From positions 378,529 to 395,558 of the forward strand of contig LS998015.1 of the NCBI GenBank assembly GCA_900498245.1: DNA of 17,030 bases. The letters are read 5' to 3'. The DNA is from Candidatus Zixiibacteriota bacterium (GTDB lineage: Bacteria; Zixibacteria; MSB-5A5; GN15; PGXB01). This document shows, in pieces, positions 1,666 to 6,325 of this stretch. Under the pieces are notes generated by a model, which worked only from the letters and a program-made list of their open reading frames with translations, was not told the origin of the DNA and ran no database searches. The translations under genes were made by a program, and so were the position numbers. Every line of letters begins with the position of its first letter. Position 1 is the stretch's first letter.

Positions 1666-2469
1666 ATGCCCCAGGTCAAATCAGAAGGGATCATCTTAAA
1701 GGCGATCGACTGGAAAGAAAATTCCCGGATCGTCACCTTTTTCACCGATAATTTCGGTCGCCAGACCATAATCGACCGCGGCGGCCGCTCGATGAAATCG
1801 AAGCGGGGACGGCTTCTGACATTCAGCCGTCTGGAGATCGAGTATTTCAAATCGGAAAAGACAGGAACCGGGTATCTTTCAGAAGTCGAGATTCTGGAAG
1901 CCTTCTCTCTGGAGAAAGAGGGGACCCTGGGGCGGTTGACATTCGCGTCGGCGTCGCTGGAACTTCTTTATGACCTTCTGGCCGAAGAAGACCCGCAGCC
2001 GGAGTTGTATTATTTGACGGTCCAGTTTCTTCGCCTGACCGATACCGCTCCCCGAGAGTCGCTTCTGCCTTTATTTCTGGCCTATTTTATCAAGGCGATG
2101 TCATTTCTGGGATACCGCCCCAATTTCGCCGGGTGTGTCGGATGCGGCAAAGGGCGCGAAGAGTCAGCCCTGACCGGCGCCGAGAGTACGAATGGTAAGT
2201 TTTATTTCTTCACGCCGGAGCGGGGCGGCCTGGTCTGTCCGACTTGCCAAATAATGGGAGAGTATTATATTAAACTCCAATCGGAACGGCTGGATCGGAT
2301 TTACTCCCTGCAGACGGCGTCGCTGGCCGAAGCGAGCGCTGTCAGGATGAATATGAAAGAGGGCGACGAGATTCTGGAACTTCTGACCGCCTTTCTGAGA
2401 TACCAGACCGAGGCGAAAGAGTTGAATTCGCTGAAGTTTCTGGAGAAACTGCGGAAGGCGCAAGTATGA
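1666..2469 (+). CDS. recO: DNA repair protein RecO
   Basis: RecO acts with RecF and RecR to load RecA on SSB-coated single-stranded DNA and anneals strands during gap repair. The 267-residue product has the family length. The N-terminal OB fold covers about residues 1-80 (KSEGIILKAIDWKENSRIV, GRGG-like turn at 38-41, KSKRGRLLTF). A helical middle follows, then a zinc site with CxxC pairs at Cys157/Cys160 and Cys191/Cys194, and a C-terminal helical domain. The start ATG at 1666 has only a weak ribosome binding site, consistent with coupling to the septum gene 15 bases upstream. The stop overlaps the next start in an ATGA arrangement (2466-2469). In many genomes recO neighbours a glycyl-tRNA synthetase gene; here an AlbA_2 gene separates the two. 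Confidence 0.95.
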   Translation: MPQVKSEGIILKAIDWKENSRIVTFFTDNFGRQTIIDRGGRSMKSKRGRLLTFSRLEIEYFKSEKTGTGYLSEVEILEAFSLEKEGTLGRLTFASASLELLYDLLAEEDPQPELYYLTVQFLRLTDTAPRESLLPLFLAYFIKAMSFLGYRPNFAGCVGCGKGREESALTGAESTNGKFYFFTPERGGLVCPTCQIMGEYYIKLQSERLDRIYSLQTASLAEASAVRMNMKEGDEILELLTAFLRYQTEAKELNSLKFLEKLRKAQV

Positions 2470-3686
2470 ATCCGTCAGCAGGGACTCCTGACGGCGCAAA
2501 GAAAAGATGCATGGAAAACGATAATTTACAAATTGACAAATATTTCAGGGAAGTTGAGGAATTGGTCAAAAATGACACACCTGAATCATATTTATTAGAA
2601 TATAAACGGGAATTGAATATCGAAGCGGACAAGGAAAAAAAGGAATTTCTTGCTGATATTTCGGCTTTTGCGAACAAATTTGGCGGCCGAATTATTTTTG
2701 GAGTACAGGAAAAAAGAGATAAAGAAGGTAAGAGCACTGGTCGGCCTGAAAAAATAGTGGGTATTGGGTCCATAAATGAAGATGAACTGAAAAGCAAGAT
2801 TGAAAGCATTCTTGATACCGGTATTCAACCTAAAATTACTCAAAAGCAAGTACATATTGTTCGGTCGGGGGACGTTAGTATTGTTATAATAGACATTGCA
2901 CGTAGCCTTTATGGCCCGCATTGCATTTGGTTCAAGCAATCTGGTAGGTTTTATAAAAGAACAAGCGTTGGGAAAATTCAAATGGATGTTATTGAATTAA
3001 GAGAAGCTTTTATGCAGGCCAATGAATGGAAAAAACAGGCCGACAATTTTCGTGATGATAGATTTGAGGAAATTCTTTCTGAGCTTTCGGAGGATGTAAA
3101 AAATGCGGAAGCGATATTTGTCTTGCATATTGTGCCCCTAGGCGTCGCACGGGAATCTATTGATTTTAAATTAATCCAAAAATATGCAGTAGAGATCTTT
3201 TCAAGATACTTTGGGATGTATAATTTTAGAAATACTTTAGACGGATTTATTGTCTGCAAATTAGGACAGAAGGGTATTCTTTTTCTCAGAAATGGTGCCC
3301 TTGAAGGTTTCCAGCAACTGCCCCTAAATCCAAAGAAATGTGAGGATATAAAATTTCTGCTTCTTGATGGTCATTATATTGAAAATCTGATAGATGAATT
3401 GCTCAAGAAATACATTGATTTCGCCAGGATAACTAAAATTCAACCGCCAATAGCGTTATATTTAAGCATGATGGTGCCAGATGATTGTATCCTAGATATT
3501 TCCGGAAAGGGAAACGGAATTGATTTCATTGATGAATTTCGCGAAAAGCAGTTTGATAGACGTAAATTGAAATTTGGCGGCATTGTTATTGATAATTATG
3601 ACATTGATACTAAAAAGAACTTGTGTGGATTATATGATATTTTATGGCAATCAGGAGGATGGCCGGAGCGCCCTTATAAGAATTAG
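2466..3686 (+). CDS. AlbA_2 (Schlafen-like) domain protein, AT-rich accessory gene
   Basis: A 406-residue protein whose residues 38-180 form an AlbA_2 domain: ESYLLEYKREL, then FLADISAFANKFGGRIIFGV, then IGSINEDELKSKIES and a YKRTSVGKIQM segment. This domain is found in Schlafen-like proteins, transcriptional regulators and some defence proteins and is thought to bind nucleic acid. The C-terminal half (about 195-406) is not a family I recognise; it lacks the usual helicase or winged-helix extension I would look for. ATG at 2466 has GGAAGG at 2453-2458 and overlaps the recO stop by 4 bases, but its first 15 codons lie over a palindrome; the ATG at 2511 (391 residues) may be the original start. 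Base and codon use is much more AT-rich than recO and glyS, which suggests horizontal acquisition. Confidence 0.85.
   Translation: MNPSAGTPDGAKKRCMENDNLQIDKYFREVEELVKNDTPESYLLEYKRELNIEADKEKKEFLADISAFANKFGGRIIFGVQEKRDKEGKSTGRPEKIVGIGSINEDELKSKIESILDTGIQPKITQKQVHIVRSGDVSIVIIDIARSLYGPHCIWFKQSGRFYKRTSVGKIQMDVIELREAFMQANEWKKQADNFRDDRFEEILSELSEDVKNAEAIFVLHIVPLGVARESIDFKLIQKYAVEIFSRYFGMYNFRNTLDGFIVCKLGQKGILFLRNGALEGFQQLPLNPKKCEDIKFLLLDGHYIENLIDELLKKYIDFARITKIQPPIALYLSMMVPDDCILDISGKGNGIDFIDEFREKQFDRRKLKFGGIVIDNYDIDTKKNLCGLYDILWQSGGWPERPYKN
2472..2494. repeat. Palindrome at recO end / AlbA_2 start
   Basis: CCGTCAG at 2472-2478 is the perfect reverse complement of CTGACGG at 2488-2494, with a 9-base loop (CAGGGACTC). 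It begins immediately after the recO stop codon and lies under codons 3-10 of the longest AlbA_2 reading frame. It looks like a dispersed intergenic hairpin (REP-like) rather than coding sequence; no second copy is seen in this window. Confidence 0.6.
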
Positions 3687-5250: not shown

Positions 5251-5907
5251 ATGGAGCCCATTTTGCTGGGATACGGAAAAATTAAAAGCTCTCTTTTTTT
5301 AATTTTATTATTGAATTTGATGATTGCTATTTGTTTGTCAAGTGCATTCGCCAATCAAAACTCTGATACAAATTCAATCTCCGATACTGCAATAAAACAT
5401 TTAGGCATTTGGAATATCGTGGATACATTTGTATTTAAGCAGCAACATTGGATTACTGCCTGTGGTTTTATTTTGACAATCGTAGGCTTAGTCTTAGGAT
5501 ATTTCAAGGTGAAAACAAGAATTGACAAGTTTCGAAATCAGGCGAAGGCGAATATTTCAATTGCTAATCTTGCTACCACGAAGGCATTAGTTGAAGAATT
5601 AATTACCGGCAAAATAGCAGCTAACGTTCCACTTCTTCAGAGAAAAACCATCGATTTGTGTAATATGCTGATTCAACTTAGTCAGCTAATTCCTTTTGAA
5701 AATGAAGAGTCGCATAGTCAACTTAAAAACTATATTGGTGTAATACGAGTTTTCGAGAGGCAAATTACCAATGATATGCAGCTTGGAAGCAAAAGCCTGG
5801 ATATAAAGAGATATTTCAGTAATCTTATGGCAATTAAGGTCTTTTTATTAGAAACTCAAAATGCGATGAATATTTTGAATAGAGGTAGGATAAATGATTC
5901 CAAATGA
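5251..5907 (+). CDS. Membrane-anchored protein of unknown function
   Basis: A 218-residue protein in AT-rich DNA that I do not recognise. Residues 13-33 are strongly hydrophobic and end in SAFA-NQ, so they may be a cleaved signal peptide or a first membrane helix. Residues 67-85 (ITACGFILTIVGLVLGYF) form a clear membrane helix, followed by a positively charged stretch (KVKTRIDKFRNQAK) that predicts a cytoplasmic C-terminal domain. Residues 90-218 appear all-helical. The ATG at 5251 has no convincing ribosome binding site, so the start is uncertain. Its last 14 bases overlap the next gene, which argues for a two-gene unit. Composition is like that of the AlbA_2 gene and unlike glyS. Confidence 0.7.
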   Translation: MEPILLGYGKIKSSLFLILLLNLMIAICLSSAFANQNSDTNSISDTAIKHLGIWNIVDTFVFKQQHWITACGFILTIVGLVLGYFKVKTRIDKFRNQAKANISIANLATTKALVEELITGKIAANVPLLQRKTIDLCNMLIQLSQLIPFENEESHSQLKNYIGVIRVFERQITNDMQLGSKSLDIKRYFSNLMAIKVFLLETQNAMNILNRGRINDSK

Positions 5908-6325
5908 TTACCTGAAAATCTTCTGGGGTATGTACAAAAAAACAAAGGAAAATAAGCTCAATTGGAGCAAGGGCACGAAGGCTAATGAATTCATAGCAGC
6001 AGTTGGCTTCTACATAGCAGTAATTCAAAAAAATATTGAATCTGTCGATTACAATGAATATGAGCGGATTTATTTTTCCTTGCGAGAACAAGAGGGCGAT
6101 GAGATTGATTCTTTTGATATTACCGATGACGAGAAAGGTTTTAAGGAGGCAAATGAGTTATTTCTTGGCGCTCGAAGGAGTGCTTTGAAAATCAATGAAG
6201 CGGTCAAAGAATTGGAGAAGGAACTGGGAGTTGACGATGAGATTCTTGAACCGCCTGAATTAACACCGCCACCGGATAGTGAACATCCACCGGAAATAAA
6301 AGAAGATGATGACTTGCCTTTTTAA
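5894..6325 (+). CDS. Small acidic protein with an SSB-like C-terminal peptide (DDDLPF)
   Basis: A 143-residue protein of unknown family. Residues 1-112 look mostly helical and contain no OB-fold pattern that I can see. Residues 113-136 are a Pro/Glu/Asp-rich linker (EPPELTPPPDSEHPP). The last residues are EDDDLPF followed directly by the stop. This terminal peptide is nearly the same as the conserved acidic tip of bacterial SSB (DDDIPF in E. coli, DDDLPF in B. subtilis), which docks RecO, RecG, PriA, RecQ, exonuclease I and other genome-maintenance proteins. I infer that the protein may borrow that docking site. AGAGG at 5881-5885 and AGG at 5887-5889 give good translation signals for the ATG at 5894, and the gene overlaps its membrane-protein neighbour by 14 bases. 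The DNA is AT-rich and the gene is probably acquired. Confidence 0.75.
   Translation: MIPNDYLKIFWGMYKKTKENKLNWSKGTKANEFIAAVGFYIAVIQKNIESVDYNEYERIYFSLREQEGDEIDSFDITDDEKGFKEANELFLGARRSALKINEAVKELEKELGVDDEILEPPELTPPPDSEHPPEIKEDDDLPF

Follow-up and report, generated by a model that had tools for sequence, protein, structure and literature searches.

We have analyzed a small gene whose protein product ends in EDDDLPF, the same seven residues that close the tailed SSB of its host. The gene lies in a 17,030-nucleotide stretch of contig LS998015.1 from a Candidatus Zixiibacteriota bacterium, hereafter called the window. Judged by sequence comparison, it is the second gene of a conserved two-gene module, in which a membrane-anchored helical protein is followed by a small acidic alpha-beta4-alpha protein, and the tail that carries the tip is a private 31-residue addition to this module in the window lineage. 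The most likely explanation, to which we give about an even chance, is that the small domain holds the membrane partner while the tail docks on SSB-interacting enzymes; the partner binding, the docking and its consequence are what we infer from the observations presented here.

The small gene and its tip in the host genome

The features of the module in the window are as follows.

5251..5907, + strand: upstream partner, 218 aa (ORF; leave-one-out HMM, E 2.3e-5; low-confidence all-helical model)
5882..5889, + strand: GAGGTAGG, Shine-Dalgarno-like, 4 nt before the ATG of the small gene (read in the sequence)
5894..6325, + strand: small soluble protein, conserved alpha-beta4-alpha domain with private SSB-type tail (ORF; leave-one-out HMM; model)
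5894..6229, + strand: family domain, residues 1-112 (AlphaFold2 model, block pLDDT mostly 69-91; alignment)
6230..6322, + strand: tail, residues 113-143, Pro/acidic disordered linker and SSB-type tip (pLDDT 45-61, no secondary structure; C-terminal ends of other members)
6302..6322, + strand: tip EDDDLPF, the same seven residues that end the host SSB (sequence comparison)

The original prediction described an AT-rich gene that overlaps a membrane-protein gene, lies near recO and ends in EDDDLPF with the stop immediately after. The reading of the gene itself was accurate: the ORF begins at an ATG that matches, in the alignment, where the other family members begin, encodes 143 aa and ends ...KEDDDLPF, directly followed by TAA. 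It overlaps the upstream membrane-protein ORF by 14 nt. Its GC content is 38.9% (GC3 37.5%) and that of the membrane-protein gene 33.6%, as against 53-55% in recO, glyS and most window neighbours. The AT-richness of both module genes relative to these neighbours suggests acquisition from outside, and the module DNA was probably acquired; a search around the module for direct or inverted repeats marking an insertion gave none that was convincing. The end of recO (position 2469) is indeed 3.4 kb from the small gene, but the proximity looks incidental, since an AlbA_2/Schlafen-domain gene and glyS lie in between and none of the read flanks of other members contains recO. The AlbA_2/Schlafen gene (window 2466-3686, 36.5% GC), which overlaps the recO stop by 4 nt and precedes glyS, is another AT-rich acquisition.

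The host genome (3.5 Mb, one contig) encodes two SSBs above the Pfam cut-off for PF00436. The tailed one (L005, C1:1756095) ends SEDDDLPF, and over the 24 nt of tip codons including the stop it differs from the small gene at four positions, all synonymous. The second SSB (L006, locus 1333-1836 on the - strand of C1:3217877-3221188, identified by Pfam match) lies beside an rpsF-like gene, the usual place, and ends DYEENSL, without an acidic Pro-Phe tip; the tailed SSB sits elsewhere in the genome. The small protein has no match to PF00436, although the same model detects both true SSBs. It thus carries the acidic Pro-Phe tip and disordered linker of an SSB and lacks the OB fold; the proposal of an SSB-type tip on a non-OB protein is upheld by this result and by the alpha-beta4-alpha model described below.

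The pattern [DE][DE]xPF-stop occurs at only three sites in the genome, all of them in-frame gene ends: the small gene, the tailed SSB and a third gene (L008). The reversed control pattern occurs at two sites, so that the count of sites alone is not decisive and it is the in-frame placement and the identity with SSB that tell. The L008 locus (829-2300, host genome about C1:473 kb) encodes a phrog_22961-like protein of 229 aa that ends PAEEVPF, an SSB-like tip. Its gene shares 4 nt with a PD-(D/E)XK, phage-exonuclease-like gene, and a gene for an Mrr-type nuclease lies upstream; this may be a recombination cassette in which the first protein uses the SSB-like tip.

The end of the small protein could also be fortuitous, a functionless extension that arose when the 3' end of the gene drifted to a downstream stop and happened to spell EDDDLPF. 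We regard this as possible, though on balance doubtful. D, E and P already abound in the tail, and when its 31 residues were shuffled an SSB-like end ([DE]3[ILVMF]PF) appeared with a frequency of 1.2e-4 and DDDLPF itself in 4.5e-6, figures that are weakened because the tip features were chosen for being striking. The first figure and the two reversed control sites favour chance; the second speaks against it, as do the exact identity with seven residues of the host SSB and the position of the tip, exactly at the C terminus and behind an SSB-like Pro/acidic disordered linker.

A two-gene module with a private tail

The first relatives were reached with probes written to resemble a possible family consensus, which served as leads only and not as evidence. 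Family membership was decided by a leave-one-out test on real sequences only, which avoids circularity. Against an HMM built from the other real members the window protein reaches 62 bits (E 8.4e-17), with shuffled decoys absent from the table. In total the family has 12 distinct members including the window, eight with the partner gene and four without. The loci, by presence of the partner, are these.

With partner gene: the window, L018, L019 (the same member as L024, from a Calditrichota genome), L021, L022, L026, L027, L031
Without partner gene: L011, L012 and L013 (same phylum as the window), L020

Of the members L018-L022, L026, L027 and L031, one belongs to the same class as the window and the others come from other phyla. 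On this evidence the family is an undescribed one that is present in other bacterial phyla. In Pfam and PADLOC there is no accepted match to either the small family or the membrane-protein family, and the two module proteins of the window have none in NCBIfam or PHROGs. When the small protein was used as single query against genome contigs, viral contigs, plasmids and phages, nothing was found outside its own genome. Two weak matches within the phylum (L002 and L003) were a peptidyl-prolyl isomerase-like protein and an oxidoreductase, both unrelated. With other members or the probes as queries, viral contigs, plasmids and phages likewise gave no members, and a match to phrog_6599 (E 0.1) was confirmed in no genome. 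A 272-aa ORF of another genome (L023, - strand, 3-818) has a weak part-match to the small-domain profile (E 0.005); it could be a larger, distant relative.

In eight of the 12 members the small gene directly follows the membrane-protein gene, with a spacing between -14 and +24 nt (-14 in the window). The partner proteins of these loci are 158-218 aa long, and each has a helical domain and a charged stalk together with a transmembrane segment close to its N terminus. The window partner matches the profile of the other seven with an E value of 2.3e-5 in the leave-one-out test, the best shuffled decoy reaching 0.024. Its 218 residues include a transmembrane segment at about residues 66-88, a stalk helix and a helical bundle; the model of this protein, like that of the small one built on two sequences (the window and L024), is all-helical and of low confidence. 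It also has an extra N-terminal hydrophobic, signal-like segment (window 5251-5450, about residues 12-34) that the other members do not have. The flanks of the pair, read by eye from translations, vary among genomes and include tyrS, mutS2, an RbsC-like transporter, ATP synthase genes, cysC and scpA; the pair therefore has the character of a self-contained cassette and does not look like part of a fixed locus or of a recognisable defence island. L018 and L027, from two genomes of one small phylum, share their location: in both, the module comes immediately behind a gene for an RbsC-like transporter, which suggests vertical inheritance there.

These results bear on the speculation that the gene belongs to a membrane-linked accessory or anti-host/defence module. 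The membrane link is supported by gene order, as the overlapping gene proves to be an operon partner that is conserved. There is no direct support for a role in defence or against the host: the small family has no match in PADLOC-DB 2.0.0, and elsewhere the module stands beside ordinary genes. Single members of the membrane-protein family gave the only PADLOC matches (E 0.002-0.03), and we attribute these to chance resemblance between long helices.

The acidic Pro-Phe tail is missing from all 11 other members. Their C termini lie no more than a few residues from the last helix (for example ...LNELENNV, ...DALLSALG and ...IFKELESL), which indicates that the tail was added in the window lineage. 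The original prediction had named relatives with the N-terminal part and no such tail as the finding that would count against it, and at the level of the family this is what we observe. The tail is thus not the defining function of the family, and it is not tied to the ancestral function of the module; it could be fortuitous, but a private tail is still compatible with docking specific to this lineage. No close homologue that would show selection on the tail was found.

Predicted fold of the small domain

An AlphaFold2 model of the small protein was obtained from a two-sequence alignment (the window and L024), with a mean pLDDT of 75 and a pTM of 0.62. It contains a helix (residues 4-18), four strands (32-37, 40-51, 54-65 and 70-75) and a long helix (80-111), while residues 112-143 are unstructured. 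The expectation of a helical N-terminal part was therefore wrong, this part being predicted as alpha-beta4-alpha. Its boundary at 112 residues and its lack of an OB fold were both correctly foreseen, the latter in agreement with the absence of a PF00436 match. The Pro/acidic linker before the tip, likened to that of SSB, is confirmed as well, since the model has the tail disordered and clear of the domain (pLDDT 45-61). In the alignment W24 is conserved, and most members carry an ARR motif (R94, R95 in the window protein) on the last helix. No fold search produced a match that could be relied on (best PDB E value 0.16, best VIA Z score 4.6). The best viral fold match, with an E value of 2.9e-3, is an uncharacterised phage protein; absence from such fold lists excludes nothing.

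The four-strand meander followed by a helix recalls PC4- and PUR-like proteins, and one could imagine that the sheet binds ssDNA and that the tail makes the protein a second kind of SSB. We consider this explanation very improbable. PC4 and PUR repeats do occur among the weak structural matches, with Z scores of 3.0, but a Z of 3 is within the noise and unrelated folds score equal or higher. Moreover, the domain is acidic, with a pI of 4.88 here and 4.6-5.4 in most other members, which argues against nucleic-acid binding and makes an ssDNA-binding role of the sheet unlikely.

Proposed docking on SSB-interacting enzymes and its alternatives

The tail resembles the SSB-Ct of bacterial SSB (PF00436) in its last seven residues, in its Pro/acidic disordered linker and in the Phe, Pro and Asp that partners read; the two proteins differ in that the small protein lacks an OB fold, is predicted as alpha-beta4-alpha and is encoded with a membrane protein. 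Compared with the other modules of a transmembrane and an alpha-beta4-alpha protein, in Calditrichota and other phyla, the window module agrees in both genes, their order and spacing and the alignment of the domain, whereas those modules end at the last helix and lack an SSB-type tail. In SSB partners the terminal Phe is buried in a hydrophobic pocket, the carboxylate is held by a basic lip and Asp is read by a basic ridge (PMC10164576). The SSB tip binds weakly or not at all once the Phe is lost or the Pro changed, and the tip alone accounts for the full affinity of SSB for RecG, 3-4 uM (PMC10164576). The small protein has the terminal Phe, penultimate Pro, Asp cluster and sufficient linker that an SSB-Ct mimic requires (requirements from PMC10164576); its linker, at about 25 residues, is longer than the 11-20 that have been discussed as a minimum for SSB (PMC10164576). 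A search of the literature for mimics of the SSB tip found no example.

The same C terminus could instead serve as a degradation signal, through which ClpXP or a similar protease would keep the small protein short-lived, like the labile partner of a toxin-antitoxin-like pair. The LPF at the end of SsbA suffices for degradation by ClpXP in some Streptococcus mutans strains, and GFP-DDDLPF is degraded there (PMC5143411). The small protein shares the C-terminal LPF after DDD and is encoded in a tight two-gene operon. It is a candidate only, however, as recognition of LPF is limited to some S. mutans strains and is absent in several others and in E. coli (PMC5143411). The identical end of the host SSB also argues against a degron, and other members of the module lack LPF, so that lability by this route would not be general. 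We consider the degron reading improbable.

Under the docking reading, the small domain would bind the membrane partner, as the operon suggests, and the free tail would dock in the SSB-Ct pocket of at least one SSB-interacting enzyme, such as RecO, RecG, PriA, RecQ, RecJ, DnaG and the like. As the tip is identical to that of the host SSB, any pocket in which the host SSB-Ct fits should also take the peptide of the small protein. The alignment of host RecO to E. coli RecO covers residues 9-166 only. The docked enzyme would then be brought to the membrane complex, or SSB would be competed off it. With a micromolar affinity of the SSB-Ct, a low-copy membrane protein would compete poorly with abundant SSB, and local recruitment seems a better guess than simple competition.

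A further step, which we think rather unlikely, is that a membrane complex with a copied SSB tip captures replication-restart or repair enzymes, to the membrane or off SSB, on a signal sensed by the module, possibly in phage defence. If true, this would be a new way to control SSB partners. The family libraries used contain no description of the module; with the alignment, predicted fold and operon signature obtained here it has become testable. In E. coli about twenty proteins of DNA repair and replication are directed by the SSB tip, which acts as a hub signal (PMC10164576). A protein other than SSB that bears exactly this tip, and whose gene shares an operon with that of a membrane protein, would be a natural candidate to compete at this hub or to re-route it.
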